DNA of 64,000 nucleotides, taken from contig NZ_CP045687.1 in the NCBI RefSeq assembly GCF_009601705.1, forward strand, positions 594,630-658,629, in the 5' to 3' direction. Positions 6,061 to 42,345 of the stretch are shown here, piece after piece; position 1 is the first letter of the stretch, and every line of letters begins with the position of its first letter. The notes below the pieces were generated by a model. That model was given only the letters and a program-made list of their open reading frames with translations. It was not told the DNA's origin and searched no databases. A program made the position numbers and the translations under genes. Source of the DNA: Sulfolobus sp. E5-1-F (GTDB lineage Archaea; Thermoproteota; Thermoprotei_A; Sulfolobales; Sulfolobaceae).

Positions 6061-7163
6061 ATGAAAAACGAGATCAAGGACTTGGTAGGTAGAGCTAAGG
6101 CAGAACTCGTAAACACCATCAATTTCGTAGTAGGAACACTAAGGATGCAAGGACTAACAAAAAAGGTCGCTATCGCACTAGCCTTAATCGCATTCATAAG
6201 CGATAGAGCTAGCGTGAAGAACATCTCAGAAACGTTCAACCTAGATTACAACCTACTCAAAGCGTTAGAGGAAGTGGAAAAGCGTGGACGAACTACCTAG
6301 ACAAATTAAGAGAACTAATCAAAGGACCAGTAGTAATCATAATCGACGACACGTTCGACCACAAGGAATACGCTAGAGCTAGAAACAGAGCGAGCGGACA
6401 AGGAAACTACATCATGTGGTGTCAAGCACACAAGAGATTCGAATCCGGAGTCCAATTACTAACAATCGCAATCTACGATCTGAACACCAAGAAAGCTTAC
6501 ATGATAGGAGCCTTCCCCTACGCTACTAGAGAAATGTACGAGAGGGGAATGGTGAAGGAGTTCCAAACCAAGATCCAGATGGCCTCTGCATTAATGAAGC
6601 TGCTAAGAGAGAAGTTTCAAGTGATGAGAGTCGTCTTCGACTCTTGGTATTGGTCGAGTGAGCTCGTAACTGACAAGGTAGTGTCTGAACTGAAGTCCAA
6701 TAGGAGAGTCCTCAGAGTCAAGTCAATCCAGGGGACCCATGATGAGGTGGAGGGTCACCTTCACGTGGGCGATCTACCCCCTGGAAGTTATTTGGTCGAC
6801 TTGACCCTGAAGGACAAAGTTATTACTGTTAAGTTGTTCGTCGAGGAATATAAAGATTACGGCAGGAGGAACCTCTATACTACTGACCTATCCCTTAGCA
6901 AGGAAGAGGTTGAGGAGACTTGGAGGATAAGGTGGGAGATCGAGAAGTTTCACAGGGACATTAAGGTTCTAGGTCTTCAAGATACCTCTTTCTTCAAGAG
7001 GGTTAGGCTTCAAGGTTATGTCCTCCTCTTCGTGATGCTCGTTAACGCTGTTAGGGAGCTATTGGCCTCCCTTAACTTAAGGAGCGTTGAGGAATTGTTG
7101 AGGTTCGTTGAAAGGCATTTAGGAGGGATAGTGGGACTAATGAAAATCTTTAAACTACGTTAA
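6061..7163 (+). pseudogene. IS4-like DDE transposase, split by -1 frameshift
   Basis: The first part (6061-6300) carries the N-terminal helical region and ends in a stop just after EEVEKR. Shifting by one base at the AAAA run at 6278-6281 joins it to a frame reading KAWTNYLDKLRELI, then VVIIIDDTFDHK (first catalytic Asp), which continues into the second part. That part has VVFDSWYWSS (second Asp) and WRIRWEIEKFHRDIKVLG (the E-box with R and K). All catalytic residues survive, so this is either a single-base lesion or programmed -1 frameshifting, which some IS elements use. The short A-run makes a lesion somewhat more likely. Confidence 0.8.
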
Positions 7164-7365
7164 AATCTCATAACTGCTGTAATGTTTTTTAATTATCAAC
7201 TAAAAAGTGATAAATATTTAAAACTTTGATAATTCTCTACTTTCTTGAATTTGCAAAACTGTTAACTATAAGAAGATATAACTTTGATTTATGCAATAAA
7301 TCAGCGGATAACTTTGTAATTTTTACAATAATCCTTATATGTTTGATAATGTATAATGTATATTG

Positions 7366-7830
7366 ATGGGAGTTAATATAATAAGACTTGATGATATTGA
7401 TGAGAAAATACTCGATATTTTACGTTATAATGCTAAAAAGAGTTTAAAAGAGCTATCGGACGAACTGGGAATACCTATAAGTACTGTAAGGTATAGGATT
7501 AAGAGATTGGAAGATGCCCAGATAATAAAGGGATATGTAGCAATAATAGACAGAGTGAATCTAGGGTTAAACGTCTCATTAGTTATGGAAATAGAAACAG
7601 TACCATATTCCATAAAAAAGGTCGCTCAAGAATTAGGTGAAATACCGGAGGTAGTGAGAATATATGGTTTAGATAATGGACCTAGATTACATGTGCATAT
7701 GATCTTTAAAGACGATGCGAGTGCACATCAATTTATAGCAAATAAATTGTACAATATTAAGGGAATTAAGACTGTTTCCATTTCAAGAATAATTGAGAGA
7801 TATAAAATAGACCCTTCAGTATTGCTATGA
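7366..7830 (+). CDS. Lrp/AsnC family transcriptional regulator
   Basis: A 154-residue regulator. Residues about 7-60 form the winged HTH (DEKILDILRYNAKKSLKELS, then IPISTVRYRIKRLEDAQIIKGY), followed by a RAM ligand-binding/oligomerisation domain. ATG at 7366 is preferred over the TTG immediately before it. A TATA-like CCTTATATG lies about 30 nt upstream. It is convergent with the oxidoreductase operon next door and is the best local candidate to control it; such regulators usually sense amino acids or small acids. Confidence 0.9.
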   Translation: MGVNIIRLDDIDEKILDILRYNAKKSLKELSDELGIPISTVRYRIKRLEDAQIIKGYVAIIDRVNLGLNVSLVMEIETVPYSIKKVAQELGEIPEVVRIYGLDNGPRLHVHMIFKDDASAHQFIANKLYNIKGIKTVSISRIIERYKIDPSVLL

Positions 7831-7886: not shown

Positions 7887-8903
7887 TTATCTATCGCTTA
7901 TCTTAACATTTAAAGACTTTATCGGCATTACCCCAGGTATTTCCCATTCTTCATACATCTCGTCAACCATCCTTTGTACATATTCTATGTCTTCTTCCGT
8001 AAAGTGTGAAAATCTTCCTTGCTTTTCTAAGTATTCTTTTACTGGTTTTCTCTTCATTCTACCCTCTACTATACTCTTTGTAGGCTCATTGTAAACTATC
8101 TCACCATCAATATACTCATATAAGGGCCATAACCCTGTTTCGGCTGCTAATACTCCCAGTTCATGAGAGAACCTTGGATCGTAATCCCATCCTTTCGGGC
8201 ATGGGTCTAAGGAGTGAATGAATGTTGGTCCACCTATTGCTAATGCCTTTCTAATCTTATTTATGGAATCCAAAGGATACGCCGGTGTCATAGTAGCGGC
8301 GTATCTAATATTCCTATGTCCAGCTATTATCATTGGGACTACGCTCTTCTTCCATCTCTTCTTCATTATCCTTCTTTGTTTACCAGGCCTACTAAATGAG
8401 GTCTGTGCTCCAAAAGGTGTCATGCTAGTCTCTTGTATATCAGTGTTAGCTGAAGATTCATTATCATATAGTATTATGAGTAAATTATAATCGTACGTCA
8501 TTGCGTTTGAAACACCAGACAAACCCATATCTGCACATCCTAGATCTCCACAGAAGGCGATCACATTTATAGGTTCTTGCTTTATTTTTCCTTTTCTCAT
8601 TAACGCTCTTAATGCGGCAGCAGTACCTAATGCGGCTGCACCAGATCCTCCCAATTGTGTGTGAACCCAGGGAACTATCCATGACGTGCTATAATATGTA
8701 GTATTTGCTACATACATGCATCCCGTGGCTCCTATAACTATTGTCCTTTGCCCAGCAGCTTTAGCTAAAAATCTCATAACTAGTGCGGACTCACATCCTT
8801 GGCAAGTCCTATGGCCTGATGTATAGAACTCCTCTAATGGTGTATCTTTTATTGTCTTAATTATTGACTTATACACTTTTTCTTCTATTTCCTTTTCAAC
8901 CAT
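7887..8903 (-). CDS. 2-oxoacid:ferredoxin oxidoreductase, beta subunit (TPP-binding)
   Basis: A 338-residue subunit that binds thiamine diphosphate and the proximal 4Fe-4S cluster. HRTCQGCESAL supplies two cluster Cys, with GATGC and DPCPKGW further on. The TPP/Mg motif is FCGDLGCADMG with YDNE about 26 residues later. It is last in the operon gamma-delta, alpha, beta. A near-perfect ribosome site GGAGGTGATC lies just before its ATG and fixes the start. Compare the canonical beta subunit at 37241-38134; the two are clearly diverged. Confidence 0.9.
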   Translation of the reverse strand: MVEKEIEEKVYKSIIKTIKDTPLEEFYTSGHRTCQGCESALVMRFLAKAAGQRTIVIGATGCMYVANTTYYSTSWIVPWVHTQLGGSGAAALGTAAALRALMRKGKIKQEPINVIAFCGDLGCADMGLSGVSNAMTYDYNLLIILYDNESSANTDIQETSMTPFGAQTSFSRPGKQRRIMKKRWKKSVVPMIIAGHRNIRYAATMTPAYPLDSINKIRKALAIGGPTFIHSLDPCPKGWDYDPRFSHELGVLAAETGLWPLYEYIDGEIVYNEPTKSIVEGRMKRKPVKEYLEKQGRFSHFTEEDIEYVQRMVDEMYEEWEIPGVMPIKSLNVKISDR

Positions 8904-8921
8904 ACGAGATCACCTCCAATT

Positions 8922-10169
8922 TTACCAGGGGTCTCCTCTGACCCCGACCCAATAAACTGGTTTTGTTACGGGAGTATCCCTATGTTCATAACCTATCTTA
9001 ATTATCTTCTCCACATCTTGAATAGTTATTTCCCTCCCACCCAATCCTCCTATAAAACTTATGACCTTAGGTCTCTGATCTACATCATATAGTGAAGATC
9101 TAATTTCATGATAAATGACTCCTCCTCTGTTTGGCGATCCCATTGAGTAATCCCTATCAACAACACACACTACTCTAGAATTTGCTAAATACTTAATGAC
9201 ATCTTGTGTTGGGAATGGCCTGAACCATCTAATCCTTAACATTCCCACCTTATAGCCTTGTCGTCTCATATTCTTTATCGCGACCTTCATTGGTTTAGAA
9301 ACTGTTCCCATTCCAATTAACACCACCTCAGCATCATCAATCATATACGGTTCTACAAATGGGTTCTCCGGCATTTTTATTTCATTAGTGGAACCAGGAT
9401 ATCTCCCGAACACCTTTTTAAATTCCTCATAGGCTTCTACTATTACATTCCTAGCCCTTTCCATAGCCTCTTCATGTTGCCTTCTGATTTCCATAACCCA
9501 ATCCTCGTTGACTTGAGGAGCTACAGTAATTGGATTGTCAGGATGAACCAAATATTTACCTCTATTATATGGTGGTAAGAAGTTCTTAACTAGCTCCTTT
9601 GGAGGCAATCTCACTATCTGTTCTGAGTGTGTTAGAAATCCACCGTCCATAGATATACCTAAGGGTAGTAATACTCTTTGATCCTCTGCTACCCTATAAG
9701 CTATTAACGTAGTATCGAAAGCCTCTTGAGCAGTGTCCACCCATACCAATAACCAACCCACATCCCTTACCATTAATGCATCATTGTGTTCAACTCCATA
9801 AGCTCCAGGATCATCTAGAGCCCTATTCCCTATTATTGCCACTACTGGAGCACGATCTGTAGCCGTAACTACTATTGCCTCCATTCCGTAAAGCCATCCA
9901 ACTCCACTACTTCCCACTAAAGTCCTAGCTCCAACTAACGAGGCATGCTTCACAGTTTCAAACTGTCCGTGTTCTCCTTCAGCAACTATGAACTCTGCAT
10001 CCAATTCACCATCTGCTATTAATTTGGAGATCGTATCCATAACTTCAGTATATGGTCTAATTGGATAAGCTGCAACTACATCTACATCCGCATACATTGC
10101 AGCATAAGCAACAGCTTGTGTTCCATTCATTAATACCTCTTTTTCTACTAATTTCTTGACCTCTGTCAT
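8922..10169 (-). CDS. 2-oxoacid:ferredoxin oxidoreductase, alpha subunit with YPIRP motif
   Basis: A 415-residue alpha subunit. The substrate motif of pyruvate enzymes, YPITP, is here YPIRP (residues 35-39, Arg38), whereas the second alpha subunit in this window has FPITP. The conserved VVAIIGNRAL Arg region is kept. From memory of work on Moorella oxalate oxidoreductase, this Thr-to-Arg change distinguishes oxalate-using enzymes. Domain order is pyrimidine-binding TPP domain, then a C-terminal domain II. It starts at an ATGA overlap with the gene before it. Most databases would call it pyruvate synthase; an oxalate or other dicarboxylic 2-oxoacid substrate is my inference. Confidence 0.88.
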   Translation of the reverse strand: MTEVKKLVEKEVLMNGTQAVAYAAMYADVDVVAAYPIRPYTEVMDTISKLIADGELDAEFIVAEGEHGQFETVKHASLVGARTLVGSSGVGWLYGMEAIVVTATDRAPVVAIIGNRALDDPGAYGVEHNDALMVRDVGWLLVWVDTAQEAFDTTLIAYRVAEDQRVLLPLGISMDGGFLTHSEQIVRLPPKELVKNFLPPYNRGKYLVHPDNPITVAPQVNEDWVMEIRRQHEEAMERARNVIVEAYEEFKKVFGRYPGSTNEIKMPENPFVEPYMIDDAEVVLIGMGTVSKPMKVAIKNMRRQGYKVGMLRIRWFRPFPTQDVIKYLANSRVVCVVDRDYSMGSPNRGGVIYHEIRSSLYDVDQRPKVISFIGGLGGREITIQDVEKIIKIGYEHRDTPVTKPVYWVGVRGDPW

Positions 10170-11257
10170 CTCCCTAACCCCGGTACGTAAACCCTTTCTT
10201 TTCTAGCTTGCCTTACACTCTTTAACCATTCCTTGTACTTTATCTTGTTCTCCTTCCACATTTCATATGGTCTTCTGTAATCTGTGAACATCGATTCATC
10301 TACCATTACTATACAATCCTTAACGGGGCATACATCTGCACATATGCCACAGCCAACACAGTAATCATACGCTATATCGTAATATCCATCTGGCGTTTCA
10401 TCAAAACATTCGTCAGGGCAGTATATCCAGCATAACTTACATTTGATACAAATATCGAAATCTACTGTAGGTCTTTCAAATTTAGTGGTTCCTCTCTTGA
10501 AGAGTTCGTTTCTCTTTCCTCTAGGAACTGCTGGTATTACTGTACCTTCCAACATCTCTTGCCATGTTAATAATCTAGGTGGATTATACACGAAATCAAT
10601 TCCCTCACCTTTCATCACAGTTCTATAATCTACTGATGAATACGCTTCTTTCACCGTAGATATTCTCTTGTCAGCATCTTGTTTTTTACTTACATATTTA
10701 ATTAGATGATCTAAATCAATGATATCTGGTCTTAACTTTGCCAATCCTCCCCAGACTTTCTCCATCGTTAAGTCGTCCTTAAATGCCCATAATCCAGAAA
10801 ATGATGGTTGAGTGTTTACTACTCCTAGAGTCCAATTGAAGTCTTTTTTAGGTATCATTTTTAACAACTCATTAATTCTCTTAGTAGAAGTTACTAACAT
10901 TGTTCCGTTGCTTTTCAGTTTAAGGTTAATTGGTTGTACTCCTTGCCATGCCCATGATTCGACACCCTTTAATAGGGTATCGTCAAGTACTATAATGGCA
11001 TCTACTAGATCTGGTTCCACTCTTGTGGAGTATCCTATTAGATCTTCCTCATTTACGTTATCACCTATTCCAACATAGTATTTTGCCGGCACTCCGTTCC
11101 TTTCTGGGGAATCTCCATATCTTCCAAAAGATAACGCTGGCCTACCCATTTCCCTGGCAGTGTACACGATCCCCTCTGCAATATACTTAGCTAATCTTTT
11201 CTGGAATATACCTCTATATACTATCTCTACATACTTCACTTCATCCTTTACTCCCAT
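10166..11257 (-). CDS. 2-oxoacid:ferredoxin oxidoreductase, fused gamma-delta subunit
   Basis: A 363-residue fusion. Residues about 1-190 are the gamma domain (YRGIFQKRLAKYIAEGIVYTA and ALSFGRYGDSPERNG). Residues about 270-320 are the delta ferredoxin domain with two 4Fe-4S sites (CIKCKLCWIYCP and CVGCGICADVCP). Other OFOR sets, including the second one here, have gamma and delta as separate proteins; the Moorella oxalate oxidoreductase also has them fused. It is first in a three-gene operon, with a TATA box (ATTATATATAGAT, 11278-11290) about 25 nt before the ATG. Confidence 0.9.
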   Translation of the reverse strand: MGVKDEVKYVEIVYRGIFQKRLAKYIAEGIVYTAREMGRPALSFGRYGDSPERNGVPAKYYVGIGDNVNEEDLIGYSTRVEPDLVDAIIVLDDTLLKGVESWAWQGVQPINLKLKSNGTMLVTSTKRINELLKMIPKKDFNWTLGVVNTQPSFSGLWAFKDDLTMEKVWGGLAKLRPDIIDLDHLIKYVSKKQDADKRISTVKEAYSSVDYRTVMKGEGIDFVYNPPRLLTWQEMLEGTVIPAVPRGKRNELFKRGTTKFERPTVDFDICIKCKLCWIYCPDECFDETPDGYYDIAYDYCVGCGICADVCPVKDCIVMVDESMFTDYRRPYEMWKENKIKYKEWLKSVRQARKERVYVPGLGR

Positions 11258-11277
11258 ATGAGAATATTTCGTAATCT

Positions 11278-11339
11278 ATTATATATAGATTGATTTGTAA
11301 CTATATTAATTTACGTATATAAGGTTTTGCAACACATTA
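11278..11339 (-). promoter_or_regulatory. Promoter region of the gamma-delta/alpha/beta oxidoreductase operon
   Basis: On the minus strand a TATA box (11278-11290) precedes the ATG by about 25 nt, so the transcript should be nearly leaderless. Further upstream is TTTTGCAACA at 11325-11334. Similar GCAA boxes occur upstream of the nearby transporters, so it may be a regulator site. Confidence 0.5.
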
Positions 11340-11395
11340 GGTTGTTTCTGTTATGTTTTGTAAAATATGCAACTTCTGGGGAAGAAAGTTTGACT

Positions 11396-11459
11396 TGACT
11401 ATTAAGAAATTTTTTAGAAAATAAAAAATAATAAAAATTACAATAAAAAATGTTTATCA
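11396..11459 (-). terminator. T-rich terminator after the antiporter-family gene
   Basis: The minus strand downstream of the antiporter stop contains several runs of five to six T within 60 nt, the usual form of crenarchaeal termination signals. Confidence 0.4.
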
Positions 11460-12739
11460 CTACAAATTATTTGGTTTTTGACTTTCAGCAGATGCAATCT
11501 GTGCAGTAGTTAGCTTTGGCGGTCGTAGGGTTAAGGCTAGGATTGCAGCTATTATGGCCATTAAACCAGTTATGACTAATGTCTCTTTTATGCCATATGA
11601 GGTGAATAGTATTGATGCACCGTATCCTGCAAATATACCAGCTAATGCTTTTGCAGTATAGGTCAATCCGTAATTAGATCCAGAGTACTTAGGTCCATAA
11701 TAATCACCTACTAGCGGAGGGAATAAGGAAAATAGTGGACCCCATGTGAATGCAGTGATGAAAATCAAGGCAAGATATAATGGTGCAATTTTTGGTATGA
11801 ATGCTACTGAAAGCATAGAAATACCGCTAATTCCAAAAGAGAGCGTCATAGTATATGGTCTACCTAAGTAATCAGATACCGTACCCATCACAAATCTTCC
11901 TAAACCATTAGCGAAGGGAAATAAGAACACAGCAATTACTGAGGCTATACTAAATCCAAGAGATCTACCGTAAGGTATTAGATGACCAATTATCGATAAA
12001 CCAGATCCTGCAATAAGGAAAAACGCCATGTAAATTACCCACCATTGCCACGTTTTAACCATTTGTGATACACTAAAATCATTTTTACTCCTCTTTATCA
12101 TCTTACGTTTTCTCTCATATTCCTCTGCATTAAATCCCTTAGGTAACCATTGGGGAGGAGGATAGGCAAAGAAAAACGCTAACAGAGTAATAACTATTAA
12201 TTGGACAATTCCCATATAAACAAATGCAGCATTGTAACTAATTGAGGTGATAATATATTGTATTAAAGGGGATAATGCAAACGCACCACCACCAAAACCT
12301 ATTTCTATAATACCAGTTGCTAGACCTCTTTTATCTGGGAACCATCTGACAGCAGTGCTAACTGCAGTGCCGTATATTATACCTATCCTATACTCCCGAA
12401 ACCATAGGTAAGATATAGTAGTGGTAGTGAATTAGCGAAAGCTGAGGTAATGTATCCAATGCCAGTGATTATCCCACCTAACATGGAAATTAGTCTAGGA
12501 CCATACCTATCGGCTATCCTGCCTGCAACAAACATTGATAGAGCTTGGACAATAATATAGATTGTATAGGTAAGTCCTAGTGCAGGTGACCCTGGAGCTA
12601 CATGAAACACTTTACCTAATGGTACTGTATATAATGTCCATGAGTATTCATATATACTGACAAGGGCCATCGAAATAGTAGCTGCTACTACTAACATCCA
12701 CCTAAACCATCCTTTTTCAAACCACTTATTGCTCATCAT
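11460..12739 (-). pseudogene. Oxalate/formate antiporter (OFA) family MFS transporter, frameshifted
   Basis: The N-terminal 118 residues (12383-12739) contain the first transmembrane helices and the MFS loop GRIADRYGPR. They run into a stop after GFGSIG. One base is missing near 12383-12392; adding it restores IGIIYGTAVSTAVRWFPDK, then the OFA-typical GFGGGAF, and the frame continues without a stop to 11460. The restored protein would be about 425 residues with 12 helices, normal for the family, whose members exchange oxalate, formate or other small carboxylates. Loss is recent (a single indel), or the break is a sequencing error. It sits directly downstream of the oxidoreductase operon on the same strand. 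Confidence 0.8.
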
Positions 12740-13149
12740 TCATTCTATACGTAAAAAATGGTTTTAACTTTTGTTTCTAAAATTAGCCTATATTTATTAG
12801 AAATTTAACTAACTATAATCAAATCTCCTTGCATAAAATGCAAGTAATCACGTTAAAAATATAATTCTTTAGCCTAGCTAGTTGCACTATATATGGAAAT
12901 TAAATTTAAAAATATGTTGTTATTATCATATATAGTTCAGTGGATTAATAGTGTAGATAACTAAATTTTCGTATATAAACGAAAATCTTATGAATAATAT
13001 CCAAGCATACCTTAAAAGCTAAGGGGAATTTTACCTTTTTAGTTTTTGCTTGAAACTTCGGCAGAACTAACGAGTTAAACAATTCTAGATATGTAAAAAC
13101 ATTAGAAGTTAACTTAATAGCAAAGAAAAAGGGAGATATTCTATAGGCA
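12740..13149. other. Intergenic region upstream of the antiporter gene
   Basis: About 410 bp without a credible gene. It holds the palindrome at 12828-12844 and AT-rich sequence. A short minus-strand reading frame here lacks any recognisable feature and overlaps the end of the permease gene. Confidence 0.5.
12828..12844. promoter_or_regulatory. Perfect inverted repeat CTTGCAT-AAA-ATGCAAG
   Basis: Seven-bp arms with a 3-bp spacer, about 90-105 bp upstream of the antiporter start. The size and symmetry suit an Lrp/AsnC-type or other dimeric regulator. It resembles the GCAA boxes before the oxidoreductase and permease genes. Confidence 0.45.
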
Positions 13150-14742
13150 CTAAGGTACAAATAGAGATGGAGCCAAGAAAGCATAGAGCGCTCCTATAAG
13201 TATTAGATATATCAATATACCTATAGCCCAAGGTAAGTTTTTCCTAATTACTATTCCCTCTTTTCGCACATATTTTGTTGTTGATACCCCTGCACTTGCA
13301 GTCTGCGGAGCGACTGGTTTACCTAACTCAGCACCAACAGAGTTTAAAGCAGGCGGTAATCCCACTGGCAATCCCACTAAACGTGCAGTAGCTACTTGGA
13401 AAGCTCCAAAAAGGGCGTTAGTCGAAGTATTGCTTCCAGACAGTGCACATCCAATCCATCCAAATAAGGGTGATACTATTATAAATGCTATTCCTAGATC
13501 ACTAGCTTTCCAGGCTAATGAGTAAGCCATTCCGCTGAAATTAAAAACATATGCGAGTCCAACTACGAAAACACCAGTTAGTATCCCTCCCCAGTATTGA
13601 TGAAAAGACCTCTTTATTGATTCTCCCATAATTTTTGGCGAGGCCCTTAAAACTAGGGAAATGATTATCCATGATACCATAATTGATGTACCTGCTACGA
13701 AAGGATTAAAGGCAAATCTTACTGCCACGTTCTTATGAAGAAGTGAAGAGTAAGCTGGCTGAGATAAGGTGACTAGTGAAAATTTAGTCAATGGTGACCA
13801 TGGACCCGTCCATAGAGTTACAACTATTATTAATATTATGAAAGCTGATAACGCTTCGATAACGTCTTTTGTCGAGTATTTCTTACTATTCCCACCATTA
13901 GGCTGAAGACTTCTTAAGCTTAGCACTCTTTTAGGTCTCCACACTCTTAAGAATAAAAGCAATATTACAAAAGATACTAATGACCCCGTAATGTCAGGCA
14001 AATAAGGACCAACAAAACTGGCTATTGGATATTGACCTAAGATATAGGACAATGAGCCGAGTATGGCTATTGGCCATGCTTCCTTTATCCCTCTCCATTT
14101 ATCAACTAAGTATAATAATATCCAAGGTGGTAATAGAGCTAAAATTGCTACTATCTTTGCCACTGAAGATGATACAAAAAGTAGTGGTAAACCGGTAACT
14201 GATGCCAATATGACAATTGGTGTTCCTAATGCACCATAGGATACTGGTGCATTATTAGCTAATGCTGAAACCTGAAGAGCTTTTAGATCATCAAAACCTA
14301 AATATATTAATAATGGAGCAATAAATGCCCAAGGATATCCAAATCCTACTAATCCCTCAAATAATGCTCCTAATGACCATGCTAATACGATAGCTTGAAC
14401 TCTAGCGTCATTAGTAGAGTTTCTCACTATCCAATCCCTAAACGCATCGAATTTTCCAGTTAACACTAACGTATTATAAATTGTTAGCCCCCAAAACACT
14501 ATCCAAGATATTGCCCAAGTTCCTACTAATGCTCCTATGAGCCATGCATAACTTACTTGTACTATAGGAGCCCCCCATACAAACGTTGCAACCAAAATAG
14601 TTATTATTGAACCTATTAGCGTAGCTAACCACGCAGTTATTCTTAGCCCAGCCAACAACACCAGTAGTACTATTATTGGCGTTAAGGATGCTAGAATAGT
14701 TAGACCTACGTTACCAGTTGGGTTTAAGGGTTGTATATACAT
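13150..14742 (-). CDS. L-lactate permease (LctP/GlcA) family transporter
   Basis: A 530-residue polytopic membrane protein with about 12-14 hydrophobic helices. Family signatures are FEGLVGFGYPWAFIAPLLI, NNAPVSYGALGTPIV, and FGWIGCALSGSNTSTNALFG followed by KPVAPQTASAGVS. Bacterial homologs import L-lactate, D-lactate or glycolate with protons. Its place beside a 2-oxoacid oxidoreductase fits uptake of a 2-hydroxy or 2-oxo acid. A GTTTGCAACA box lies about 85 bp upstream of its start (14827-14836). Confidence 0.9.
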   Translation of the reverse strand: MYIQPLNPTGNVGLTILASLTPIIVLLVLLAGLRITAWLATLIGSIITILVATFVWGAPIVQVSYAWLIGALVGTWAISWIVFWGLTIYNTLVLTGKFDAFRDWIVRNSTNDARVQAIVLAWSLGALFEGLVGFGYPWAFIAPLLIYLGFDDLKALQVSALANNAPVSYGALGTPIVILASVTGLPLLFVSSSVAKIVAILALLPPWILLYLVDKWRGIKEAWPIAILGSLSYILGQYPIASFVGPYLPDITGSLVSFVILLLFLRVWRPKRVLSLRSLQPNGGNSKKYSTKDVIEALSAFIILIIVVTLWTGPWSPLTKFSLVTLSQPAYSSLLHKNVAVRFAFNPFVAGTSIMVSWIIISLVLRASPKIMGESIKRSFHQYWGGILTGVFVVGLAYVFNFSGMAYSLAWKASDLGIAFIIVSPLFGWIGCALSGSNTSTNALFGAFQVATARLVGLPVGLPPALNSVGAELGKPVAPQTASAGVSTTKYVRKEGIVIRKNLPWAIGILIYLILIGALYAFLAPSLFVP

Positions 14743-37240: not shown

Positions 37241-38134
37241 TTACTTCTTAATTAGTCTTTTAATTTCCTCCCACATCTCGTCAATTTCCTCTTGTATGAC
37301 CTTTATTTGTTCTTCAGTGAGCTGTTTAAATCTTCCTTGTAATTTTAAATACTCTGCTAATGGTTTCCTATTCTTCTTCTCAACTAACGTCTTACTCACA
37401 CTAGTCAATCTAAATTCGCCATTTTCTATTTCAAATAGAGGCCAAACACCAGTTTCAACTGCAAGTTTAGCAATATCGATAGTTAGTCTAGAGTCAAAAC
37501 GCCAACCGGGTGGACATGGTGATAATAAGTGTAAATACCTAAATCCATGAATCTGCTTAGCTTTCCTCACCTTGGCTTCATAATCGTATATGTAAGCAAT
37601 TGAAGCAGTAGCGACATATGGTACTTTGTGTTCTGCAATAATAAATGGTAAGGGCTTTTTGAATTCCCTCTTGCCCTCTGGGGTTGTTGTGGTCCAAGCA
37701 CCTTTTGGCGTCAAACTTGAACGCTGAATCCCAGTATTCATATACGCTTCATTATCATAACATACGTAAAGGATATCCTCATTTCTCTCCGCTGCACCGC
37801 TTAACGATGCAAATCCTATATCGCCAGTTGAACCATCACCAGCCCAAACGGCCACTATTGCATCCTTATCACCCCTAGCCCTTAAGGCCCTTACAATACC
37901 GGAAGCTATAGCAGCAGGAGCTCCAAACGCGCTATGTACCACCGGAACAGTGGAAGGCATTCCATTTTTATCACCCATTATTATCGTAGTACATGAAGCT
38001 GGAACGACTAGGACTGTTTTATTTCCTAAAACCTCTAGGAGTACATCCAACTCTTTAGGTATTGGACAACCTGGACATGCAGCATTCCCCTTATAGAACT
38101 TAGGTATTCTCTTAGGTATAACTAAACTACTCAT
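37241..38134 (-). CDS. porB: Pyruvate:ferredoxin oxidoreductase, beta subunit
   Basis: A 297-residue TPP-binding subunit. Cluster Cys are in [12 protein letters not shown], with others in PASCTTI and SPCPPGW. The TPP motif is [13 protein letters not shown] with [11 protein letters not shown]. The start at 38134 makes an ATGA overlap with the alpha stop and is preceded by GAGAGGTGG; an upstream in-frame GTG is less likely. Last gene of the gamma-delta-alpha-beta operon. Confidence 0.93.
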
Positions 38135-39288
38135 AACAACCACCTCTCCTCTTCCAAATTATCGTTAATCAGATCTTCAATTACTTTTTCGAAGTGACGT
38201 GGTCTGACATCCTTCCCACCTATACCAGCTATTACGCTATAGACTGGCACTCTATAACCATAAAGTGTAGCCTTTATCTCATTTGCTAAAATCCCACCTG
38301 AACCATAGGAGTAAGCTCTATCGAAAACTATTACACCTTTCATCGACCTTAAATATTCCTCAATTATCTCCTTTGGGAATGGCCTGAATACTCTGATCTT
38401 AAGCAATCCAGCTTCAATCCCAGCATCCCTTAGTCTATCCACAGCAACCTTACCGTCACCACTCCATGCTCCCATGGTAACTAAAACGTACTTGGCATTT
38501 TCGCACTTATAACACTCAACTAAACCGTATTGTTTCCTTCCACTTATTCTCTCATATTCATTCATTACTTCCCCAATAACTTTTTTCGCTCTTTCCATGG
38601 CCTTCATAGCTTCATACCTATACTCCATATAGTCCTCTGGAGTAGCAACTGGCCCAATACCAATAGGATCAGAGAAATCAATTAGGTTAAAATGTCTAGG
38701 TGGTAAGAAGCTGTCAACTTCATCATTCTCCAGTACCTCAATTCTTTCCATTGTATGAGTTAATATAAAGCCATCAAAGCCCATCATAACTGGTAAGATT
38801 ACCCTCTCATCCTCTGAAATTCTAAAAGCTTGTATTGTCATATCGTAAGCTTCTTGTACGTTTTCTGCCATCATTTGAATCCATATGGCATCCCTCTTAC
38901 TTACGAAATCTTGATGATCATCCCAAATACTCCAAGGTTCCGCAATCGCTCTAGTTGCAACTGCAGCTACAATAGGAACTCTTTGACCACCAGCCCAATA
39001 AATCATTTCAGTCATATATAGCAGTCCTTGAGAAGAAGTAGCAGTGAACACTCTAGCACCAGCTAATGCTGCACCATAAATTGAAGCCAAGGCTGAATGT
39101 TCGCTTTCAACCTTTATTAACTCTGCTTTTAATTCCTCTGAAGCAATATACTCAGAAAGTTTCTCCAACATTGTAGTTTGAGGAGTTATTGGAAACACTG
39201 CCAAAACCTGAGGTTTAGCTTGCTTAACAGCATAAGCAACTGCATGATTACCGACTAAAGCTAGAACTTTCCTTTTTAAAACCTGCAT
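38131..39288 (-). CDS. porA: Pyruvate:ferredoxin oxidoreductase, alpha subunit
   Basis: A 385-residue subunit with the canonical substrate motif FPITPQT (residues 32-38), [20 protein letters not shown] and [13 protein letters not shown] (conserved Arg). It catalyses oxidative decarboxylation of pyruvate or a related 2-oxoacid to acyl-CoA, reducing ferredoxin. GGGAGGTGA about 8 nt before the ATG gives a clear start. Contrast with the YPIRP alpha subunit at 8922-10169. Confidence 0.93.
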
Positions 39289-39291
39289 TAT

Positions 39292-39558
39292 TTATTTCAC
39301 CTCCCTAACCATATCTATTGCCTTAGGTGGACAGACTTGTGCACAAACGCCACAACCTTTACAGTAGTCATAATCAATTTGAGGATATAGGTTCTCTAGG
39401 AGATCAATGGTATTTTCTGGACAATAAATTACGCAAAGTCTGCATTTAGTACACTTATCGTAACTAATCACCGGTTTCTCTACTCTCCATAATCCAGTTT
39501 TTCCAGCTGAACCTATCTTTGGCCTTGCCACTGGAACTCCTATTGGAACTTTAATCAA
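39292..39558 (-). CDS. porD: Pyruvate:ferredoxin oxidoreductase, delta subunit (2x4Fe-4S)
   Basis: An 88-residue ferredoxin-like subunit with [12 protein letters not shown] and [12 protein letters not shown], the two 4Fe-4S motifs passing electrons to external ferredoxin. The start is TTG at 39558, supported by AAGGAGGTGA lying 7 nt upstream inside the end of the gamma gene (8-nt overlap). Confidence 0.92.
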
Positions 39559-40099
39559 CCCTTTTCACCTCCTTATATCCTATTTCAACTGCCTCCGCAT
39601 TTAGTTCACCGATTTTTCCGGGAAACTCCTCCTTTACAGCCTCTTCCAATGAGTGTAAGGAAGGTTGACCCAAGATTCTTGCTAAAGCCCCTATTATCGC
39701 TGTATTAACAACAGCCCATCCAGCTACTATTAGTCCTAATTCTTTAGCAATATTGGTAGCGTCAACTACATACTCATTCTTCCAAATTCTTTTAGGTGTG
39801 TTTGTGTTCAATAGTAAGAACCCGTTTTCCTTAAGACCCTCCGTAACGTTAATTAGTTGGATTAGCGATACATCAAATATTGCTACACCATCTGGATTGT
39901 AAACTTCTCTATGCAAGAGTATTGGCTTATCTGATAGTCTTACAAATGAAACAACTGGTGCTCCCCTCCTTTCTCCGCCGAAAAAGGGAATAGATTGGGC
40001 GTACTTATCCTCTAAAACCATCGCCTTCGTTATAAGTTCTCCAGCGGTAACTATCCCTTGCCCACCTCTTCCTCTTAATGCTAATTCAAGAAGAGTCAT
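39551..40099 (-). CDS. porG: Pyruvate:ferredoxin oxidoreductase, gamma subunit
   Basis: A 182-residue subunit beginning [22 protein letters not shown], the usual gamma N-terminus; [18 protein letters not shown] follows. ATG 40099 is preferred to a TTG eight codons upstream. It leads the four-gene operon and is divergent from the molybdenum hydroxylase remnant at 40277. Confidence 0.92.
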
Positions 40100-40276
40100 T
40101 TTGTCACAATTATAATATTCCAATTCATAGGAAAAAAAGTTGTCCTAAAATGAAATATGATAAAGATATTTAACAGCATTTAGTCAAATAATTTTTATAT
40201 TCTGATTAAAACATGATATTATGATAGTACGAAATACGCGGAAAGATTTAATTAGTTAGTTTACGTAATAACTTTC

Positions 40277-42345
40277 ATGATACAAGAGCATTTACCTCTT
40301 ATAACTGGCAAAGGTAGTTATATCGACGATATTAATCCAAAGAACGTCGTTTACCTTCACGTAATTAGATCTCCAATAGCTAGGGGTATAATAAAGAGTG
40401 TATCCAAACCAGAAAGCGTACTCTTATCGTTAACATGGGAAGATGTGAAATTATACATGCCGGCGAGACTATTTCCAGACCTAGCTAAAACTGCACAAGT
40501 CGCTAAAATGCCAGTATTGGCTGATGGTAGGATCAACTTCGTAGGTCAACCAATTTTAGCATTTGTAGTTGAAGATAGGTACAAGACTGAGGACGTTGCA
40601 GAGGAAGTTTCAATTGATTATGATGAGTTAACGCCAATAGTCGACCCTGAGGAATCGTTAAATAAGGAGCCTATTCATCCCGGATTGAAAAGTAACGTTT
40701 CTATAGATCAGTATTTAGAAGGGGGAAATTTATCGTTAAAAACAAGGCTGATGTTATTGTAAGGAGGAAAATTAAACAACACAGAATTGTTTCAAATCCA
40801 ATGGAACCAAAAGGTTTCATTTGTTGGTGGGAAAACGATGTGCTAAACGTTTATGTATCTACACAAGCACCATTTGGAGTGAAGAACGATTTAAGGGAAG
40901 TTTTAGGCATTTCTCCAGAAAAAATAAAGGTCTATTCAGCACCTAATGTAGGAGGAGGATTCGGAAATAAAAGTGGTGGATATCCCGAGTATGTATTAGC
41001 TGCAATTGCTTCCCTAAAACTGGGGAGACCAGTTAAATGGATAGAAACTAGAAATGAGATGTTAGTTAACACTCAATCCTTAGGTAGAGGAGAAGTATCG
41101 GATATGAAACTTTACGCTACTAAAGATGGCGAGATTTTAGGAATAGAAGGTACTATAATAGCTAACATTGGTGCTTTCGATTATGGAATCGGTTTTATTG
41201 CTCCTCTATTTATAGCTAGATTATCTAATGGTCCTTATAAGATGAAGTTCGCCTCCATTAGGGCTTTAGGAGTGTTCACTAACACTCCTCCAATGGGATT
41301 TTACAGAGGCGCTGGTAGACCGGAAGCAGCACTGATTCATGAGACTCTTGTTGAGGATTTGGCTGAAGAATTGGGTATGGACTCTGTAGAGATTAGAAGG
41401 AAGAATTTGATCGGTGATAATGGCTATGTCACACCTCTTGGTGTTAGAATTGATCCTGCTGGCTATAATGAGGTTCTAGATATAGCTGAGAAGTATTATA
41501 GGAAGGCTAAGGAGGTTTATAAGGACAAAGGGGTTTCAATAGTTACGTTTGCTGAGATAGTTCGAACTTCACCCGGAGAAGGTGCTAGAGTTAAGATAGA
41601 GAACGGTAAAGTACGCTTCTACTTAGGACTGGGTCCACATGGACAAGCTTACGGTAGTACATTTAGGAAGCTTGCATCAGAAGTATTAGGTATAAGTGAA
41701 GATAAAATAGAAATAATTACTGGTAGTTCTGAGATCGTCAAAGAGGGTATAGGTAGCTTCGGTTCTAGAGCTGGCACTATTGGAGGTTCAGCAGTAGTAG
41801 CTGCGGCAACAGAGTTGCTTAAGAAGATAAATGCTAATTCTTTAAGTGAAGTTGACTTAGTCAAGTATGAGGGCGTAGAGGCTGAAGTGTTCTATAAGGT
41901 TGATGATATATTTGCCCCAGGTGCTCATGTAGCTGTAGTTGATGTGGATAAGGAGACTGGATTTATTAAAGTTTTGGAGTACTATGCAGTTGATGACGTT
42001 GGTAGAGTTATGAATAAGGAAGAGATAGAGGGGCAAATAGTTGGTGGAGTGTTGCAAGGAATGTCGCAAGTTATGATCGAAGCAATGAGATATGATGAGA
42101 GAGGAATTCCATTATGCTCTTCAATTGCGGATTGTGGAGTCCCAACTGCTTTAGAAGCTCCTTTAAAGGTAAATACTGAGTATGTGGAATACCCATCTCA
42201 GCTCTTGTCTAAAAGCAGGGGAGTTGGTGAGGCTGGTACTACTGGTGCTTTACCGGCTGTTTTTATAGCAGTAGAGAAAGCTACTAAAAGGAAGTTTGAT
42301 AGAACTCCAATAGATCCTTGGTTAATATCTTCCTCAATCGCTTAA
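40277..42345 (+). pseudogene. Molybdenum hydroxylase large subunit (CoxL/aldehyde oxidase type), frameshifted
   Basis: The first part (to 40762) has the family N-terminus LITGKGSYIDDI and the a/b hammerhead region. It stops after LSLKTRLMLL. One extra base in the A-run at about 40737-40741 joins it to NKADVIVRRKIKQHRIVSNPMEPKG and the rest, which has GGGFGNKSG, FYRGAGRPEA, GLGPHGQ and the catalytic Glu in SRGVGEAGTTGALPAV. The restored length is about 690 residues. No FAD or 2Fe-2S subunit is adjacent, so partners would have to come from elsewhere. Confidence 0.82.

Follow-up and report, generated by a model that had tools for sequence, protein, structure and literature searches.

A distinct variant of the oxalate oxidoreductase lineage in Sulfolobus, a candidate for ferredoxin-linked oxalate oxidation

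Which substrate is oxidised by a 2-oxoacid:ferredoxin oxidoreductase that carries YPIRP in its alpha subunit, where pyruvate-type enzymes have YPITP, and that has its gamma and delta subunits fused? The question is raised by an operon of Sulfolobus sp. E5-1-F, located in the stretch of 64,000 nucleotides that was analysed here (the window), which is part of a closed genome of 2.54 Mb from the family Sulfolobaceae. An earlier note on this DNA had proposed a possible archaeal locus for the use of oxalate or another small 2-oxoacid.

Operon layout and family membership

Three genes are tightly packed on the minus strand, transcribed in the order gamma-delta, alpha and beta. The first (11257-10166) encodes a subunit of 363 aa that joins a POR-gamma-type N-terminal domain to a delta domain with two [4Fe-4S] clusters; both CxxCxxCxxxCP clusters are complete and lie in this single open reading frame, congruent with the fusion described in the earlier note. 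The alpha gene (10169-8922, 415 aa) begins inside the gamma-delta stop codon, in an ATGA overlap, and is followed after 18 nt by the gene of the TPP-binding beta subunit (8903-7887, 338 aa). YPIRP, the other feature singled out before, was read directly at residues 35-39 of alpha.

A TATA box assigned to this operon, CTATATATAAT (11278-11289, minus strand), is located about 21-32 nt before the gamma-delta ATG. It is present in all seven congeners compared, with a single base change in one of them, and is kept also in two congeners with a different upstream gene; transcription likely has a leaderless start. Further upstream, a candidate operator (11358-11372, minus strand) reads TTGCATATTTTACAA in the window and is a perfect palindrome, TTGCATATTTTGCAA, in some congeners. 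The TTGCA of this palindrome is kept across the genus; the site is a possible Lrp/AsnC operator. A regulator of the Lrp/AsnC family is encoded at 7363-7830 on the plus strand, convergent to beta, and adjoins the operon across Sulfolobaceae; in Nitrososphaerota it adjoins divergently. Nearby, an ISC1217-type transposase gene (6414-7163, plus strand) matches profile positions 112-327 only, its N-terminal part being missing.

All three subunits find their best PDB match in the oxalate oxidoreductase (OOR) of Moorella thermoacetica (PDB 5c4i, 5exd, 5exe), with which the locus shares the combination of fused gamma-delta, alpha and beta as well as YPIRP. Alpha scored 310 bits (E 2.6e-91) against 220 bits for the next match, a PFOR, and the likeness is therefore not one of chance; beta reached 269 against 199 bits, and gamma-delta aligned over its full length. 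The NCBIfam OOR models NF045790/1/2 likewise rank first, yet miss their cut-offs (92/230, 356/500 and 339/590 bits), and PorA_Arch is nearly level on alpha, with 354 bits against 356 for the OOR model, so that a tree was needed.

Trees were built from alpha alone (55 rows) and from alpha plus beta (46 rows). In both, all YPIRP sequences, Moorella included, form one clade with 100/100 support, separate from the YPITP/FPITP sequences; some of the branches are long, and the alpha tree carries a long-branch warning. A grouping of alpha with pyruvate or 2-oxoglutarate enzymes, which the earlier note had named as an outcome contrary to its proposal, did not emerge, since alpha, whether alone or joined with beta, falls with Moorella OOR at that support. 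Within the clade, the window does not stand with Moorella: one branch holds the Moorella enzyme and two orthologues from Chloroflexota that share 56-57% identity with it, two Thermoproteota groups form further branches, and the window belongs to another, large one, in which its nearest kin outside Sulfolobaceae are Vulcanisaeta-type sequences. Judged by its sequences, the locus is a distinct variant of the OOR lineage, not a Moorella-type OOR. It differs from the latter in that alpha and beta are 40-46% identical to those of Moorella, in scores below the NCBIfam OOR cut-offs, in a further diverged gamma domain, and in clade relatives that are mostly of aerobic or open environments, going by record titles.

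The divergence of gamma is evident from Pfam POR, which finds no match in the window gamma-delta at E 0.01 but scores 53 bits on Moorella OOR and 136 bits on the ordinary gamma encoded in the window. The RGxGGQG loop is absent from both OOR-type chains (RGIFQK in the window, RGVVMNK in Moorella OOR) and intact in the window's own POR gamma, as RGRGGQG; its loss is to be expected if coenzyme A is unused. In a predicted model of gamma-delta (mean pLDDT 71, moderate), the OOR gamma-delta chain is the closest solved fold (Z 20-21), followed by ordinary gamma subunits (Z 17-19). PorABCD pyruvate:ferredoxin oxidoreductases (e.g. PDB 9bt4) share the domain plan and cofactors with the window enzyme, but have YPITP or FPITP, glycine at beta 145, separate gamma and delta subunits, an intact RGxGGQG loop and a clade of their own. 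StOFOR1 and StOFOR2 of Sulfolobus tokodaii belong to the same enzyme superfamily and archaeal family, however they are of the two-subunit type with YPITP, broad 2-oxoacid specificity and no separate delta clusters (PMC5020499).

The host genome holds further members of the superfamily. The set that had been taken for the canonical pyruvate enzyme, at 37241-40099, is indeed a second 2-oxoacid:ferredoxin oxidoreductase (OFOR) set (37241-40123, minus strand), but its alpha has FPITP instead of YPITP, and its beta scores above the cut-off (521/405 bits) of the NCBI model for 3-methyl-2-oxobutanoate dehydrogenase beta, so that this set is perhaps not the principal pyruvate enzyme of the host. A further YPITP set is found outside the window (G000:C1:66338-67423), a two-subunit-type OFOR gene is present elsewhere in the genome, and oxalyl-CoA decarboxylase was searched for in the host genome with no match over the cut-off, a point in favour of the OOR reading. 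Adjacent to the second set, a gene like that of the xanthine/CO dehydrogenase large subunit (40277-42345, plus strand) reads as two open reading frames of 161 and 514 aa, possibly through another frameshift in addition to that of the carrier gene described below.

Taxonomic spread and active-site residues

Bacterial and archaeal genomes were scanned once for two patterns, one YPIRPYT-like and one for the loop after Arg109; this recovered 494 loci encoding a relative, the best 80 of which were retained. Among these best 80 of 494, alpha is 57-66% identical to that of the window, Metallosphaera (83%) excepted. Going by record titles, the archaea represented include Vulcanisaeta, Thaumarchaeota (Nitrososphaerota), Thermoplasmata (Thermoplasmatota) and Metallosphaera, and the bacteria Rokubacteria, Methylomirabilota, Nitrospinota, Chloroflexota (SAR202, Dehalococcoidia), Acidobacteria, Armatimonadetes, Deltaproteobacteria and others; most relatives are metagenome-assembled genomes, whose individual taxon assignments can be wrong. 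Bacteria make up the majority of the relatives found, and the sampled clade members span about ten phyla, so the locus is not an archaeal speciality. The clade is rare in the phylum of the genome G061 (Pseudomonadota by its record title), as only one of 299 genomes there has a strong match, namely G061 itself, on which the search was centred, and a search of a plasmid collection returned distant porA-type matches only.

The residues of the OOR active site (Moorella numbering) were then compared across the clade. Arg31, Arg109 and Asp112 of alpha, shared with Moorella OOR, are invariant in the window's branch (Arg109 in 91 of 91), as are Cys52-Asn57 (CMYVAN) and Asn143 of beta, also Moorella features. 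The invariance of Arg31 arises partly by selection, considering the scan patterns asked for YPIRP, or for the loop with alanine, asparagine or aspartate at residue 116; searches of genomes that started from the Moorella protein are free of this bias and gave the same residue classes. A chance YPIRP within a pyruvate enzyme was rejected as an explanation, ruled out by the tree together with the Arg31 invariance.

Two positions depart from Moorella. Alpha 116, aspartate in Moorella, is alanine in the window and in all 91 sequences of its branch, and beta 145, two residues past the pocket asparagine and glycine in Moorella, is aspartate in 88 of the 88 readable sequences of the branch. Asp116 was seen only in Moorella and its two Chloroflexota orthologues. 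Read as alpha 31, alpha 116 and beta 145, the pyruvate-type enzymes have T, mostly N, and G, the Moorella type R/D/G, the two Thermoproteota groups R/N/G and the window branch R/A/D. The sole mixed state seen, R/A/G at locus L211, falls somewhere about the base of the window branch and possibly represents an intermediate between the active-site classes. Additionally, the GDG of the beta TPP motif is GDL in the window and in part of its branch.

The substrate site of OOR comprises Arg31 and Arg109, and a crystal-structure paper names Arg31 and Asp116 as key to its bait-and-switch mechanism (PMC5020499). Leu121 and Asn996 line the substrate pocket of DaPFOR (PMC5020499); we take these to be equivalent to alpha 116 and beta 143, respectively, from the alignment and the Arg114/Arg109 offset, which would locate both changed positions in or beside the pocket. 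The locus is OOR-like in every feature visible in its sequence but one residue, which is changed branch-wide alongside a second. One tentative reading, to which we give somewhat less than an even chance, is that the window branch represents a second and wider class of OOR, in which the catalytic acid would have moved from alpha (Asp116 to alanine) to beta (Gly145 to aspartate), and which would have gone unnoticed as it scores below the OOR models.

Carriers and other neighbours

The earlier note had two carrier genes follow the operon. Both share its strand but lie upstream, and so precede it. The gene of the OFA-family (oxalate/formate) MFS carrier (12739-11460, minus strand) does adjoin the operon, however in the host strain a one-base deletion near 12385 disrupts it: the alignment reveals a single missing base, with the gene reading as two open reading frames, 12739-12383 and 12215-11460. 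It is intact in four congeners, as one frame of 416-430 aa, and close to the oxidoreductase genes of two other congeners, of a sister genus and of Metallosphaera there is an OFA/MFS carrier of another, distantly related kind. The deletion may be true or a sequencing error; unless it is the latter, oxalate entry in the host strain would proceed via another carrier or be lost. The LctP-family (lactate/glycolate permease) carrier (14742-13150, minus strand; NCBIfam lctP, 355 bits with a cut-off of 341) is adjacent to the operon within the genus only. It was rejected as a conserved element on these grounds and is probably not part of the locus.

Neither fragment of the window OFA gene reaches the NCBIfam OxlT-type model. 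The OFA proteins of the congeners are closer to OxlT than to an L-lactate carrier (214 versus 172 bits), being remote homologues of the OxlT antiporter (PDB 8hpk; PMC10070484), whose oxalate residues are Arg272 and Lys355 (PMC10070484). Both residues are kept in the intact adjacent OFA genes, with lysine for Arg272 in one, but as strong evidence for oxalate they were rejected, since all unlinked OFA paralogues of Sulfolobaceae tested carry them too. OxlT has both Asn268 and Trp324, as do most adjacent OFA genes of the main type, and the pair was absent from every unlinked Sulfolobaceae paralogue tested, a pattern that favours oxalate as a weaker hint.

Across relatives, OFA-type carriers adjoin the genes in 10 of the 10 Sulfolobaceae carrying them, and also in Vulcanisaeta, one genome of family f9, Nitrososphaerota, Chloroflexota, Acidobacteriota and one Rokubacterium. 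A tripartite TctCBA carrier is located downstream instead in 23 loci, the majority from Rokubacteria and Methylomirabilota; the OFA gene of the one Rokubacterium occupies the slot that TctCBA takes in other Rokubacteria, which looks like an exchange of importers. Upstream of the genes, 28 loci have a GntR/FCD regulator; FMN-dependent 2-hydroxyacid dehydrogenases follow them in 11 Chloroflexota loci, and in one Vulcanisaeta draft they are followed by glycolate-oxidase-like genes that apparent frameshifts divide. Aggregated over the phyla, the OxlT-type OFA carriers, tripartite carriers and glycolate/2-hydroxyacid oxidases fit oxalate or glyoxylate. Some Chloroflexota loci (L084, L093, L127 and others) also have an adjoining, divergently transcribed gene for a TPP enzyme, with sulfoacetaldehyde acetyltransferase as best model, below the cut-off, and a downstream gene for a small protein of 162-182 aa, without a Pfam match in the one tested.

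Proposed reaction, alternatives and meaning

The sequence data point, with fair probability, to CoA-independent, ferredoxin-linked oxidation of oxalate by a YPIRP-lineage enzyme with a rearranged active site. Oxalate is the best guess for the substrate, followed by glyoxylate or a related small acid; substrate, CoA independence, the role of beta Asp145 and the quaternary structure are each what we infer. As a 2-oxoacid:ferredoxin oxidoreductase, the enzyme would depend on TPP and [4Fe-4S] clusters and probably form an (alpha, beta, gamma-delta)2 complex, with oxalate held between Arg31 and Arg109 of alpha, above TPP. One carboxyl carbon would be attacked by TPP and the first CO2 leave; oxidation of the resulting carboxy-TPP would then send two electrons to ferredoxin through the clusters of beta (one) and delta (two), and the second CO2 would come off with no coenzyme A involved. 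Asp145 of the beta subunit would here replace the acidic residue of the Moorella alpha loop, Asp116. The previous suggestion of an oxalate-type enzyme is upheld as to lineage and the invariant Arg31 and Arg109, and weakened by the loss of Asp116, the aspartate gained in beta and the OOR scores below cut-off.

TctCBA carriers usually transport larger acids. Their occurrence in the neighbourhoods, and that of the Vulcanisaeta glycolate-oxidase-like genes and the Chloroflexota FMN 2-hydroxyacid dehydrogenases, would fit other small acids too, counting against oxalate. The same lineage could then act on glyoxylate or a C3 2-oxo dicarboxylate such as mesoxalate, supplied by the glycolate or 2-hydroxyacid oxidases encoded next to it, with Ala116 and Asp145 reflecting the substrate, congruent with the consistent departure of the pocket from that of Moorella. 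We regard this as unlikely, though a good deal short of negligible, as the invariance of Arg31, threonine in the pyruvate type, is explained by a second carboxylate, glyoxylate having a single one, and as OFA carriers adjoin the genes repeatedly.

The near parity of PorA_Arch and the OOR model on alpha could instead suggest a pyruvate, 2-oxoisovalerate or 2-oxoglutarate ferredoxin oxidoreductase of the ordinary kind, in which threonine changed to arginine by chance. This is very improbable: Arg31 is found in every sampled clade member from about ten phyla, with the same split in the Moorella-query searches, the clade is fully supported apart from the YPITP alphas, and the host already has other POR-type sets. 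Enzymes of this class are reversible in principle, and the groups concerned are partly autotrophic, hence CO2 could be fixed into oxalate or glyoxylate by reduced ferredoxin. That the enzyme works mainly in this direction is scarcely to be expected, considering the OFA and tripartite carrier genes suggest uptake and breakdown, and that oxalate is an unlikely biosynthetic product.

Oxalate oxidation hence remains the favoured reading. The literature search found the Moorella enzyme as the only characterised member of the YPIRP lineage. On the Sulfolobus genes, on YPIRP and on the use of oxalate it returned nothing other than PMC5020499; it gave no account of Sulfolobales using oxalate and none of the window branch, most subscription journals being outside its scope. 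If the clade does oxidise oxalate, a CoA-free route to low-potential electrons would extend across about ten phyla, among them uncultured groups of soil and deep ocean, with consequences for the fate of soil oxalate and for our view of what sustains these uncultured microbes. The Ala116/Asp145 pattern moreover offers a clean test of how such an enzyme drives an unusual double decarboxylation, in the Sulfolobales, a host lineage open to cultivation and genetic modification. Should the second class be real, oxidation of oxalate with ferredoxin, a reaction known from an anaerobic acetogen, would be common in microbes of soil, ocean and hot acidic springs.
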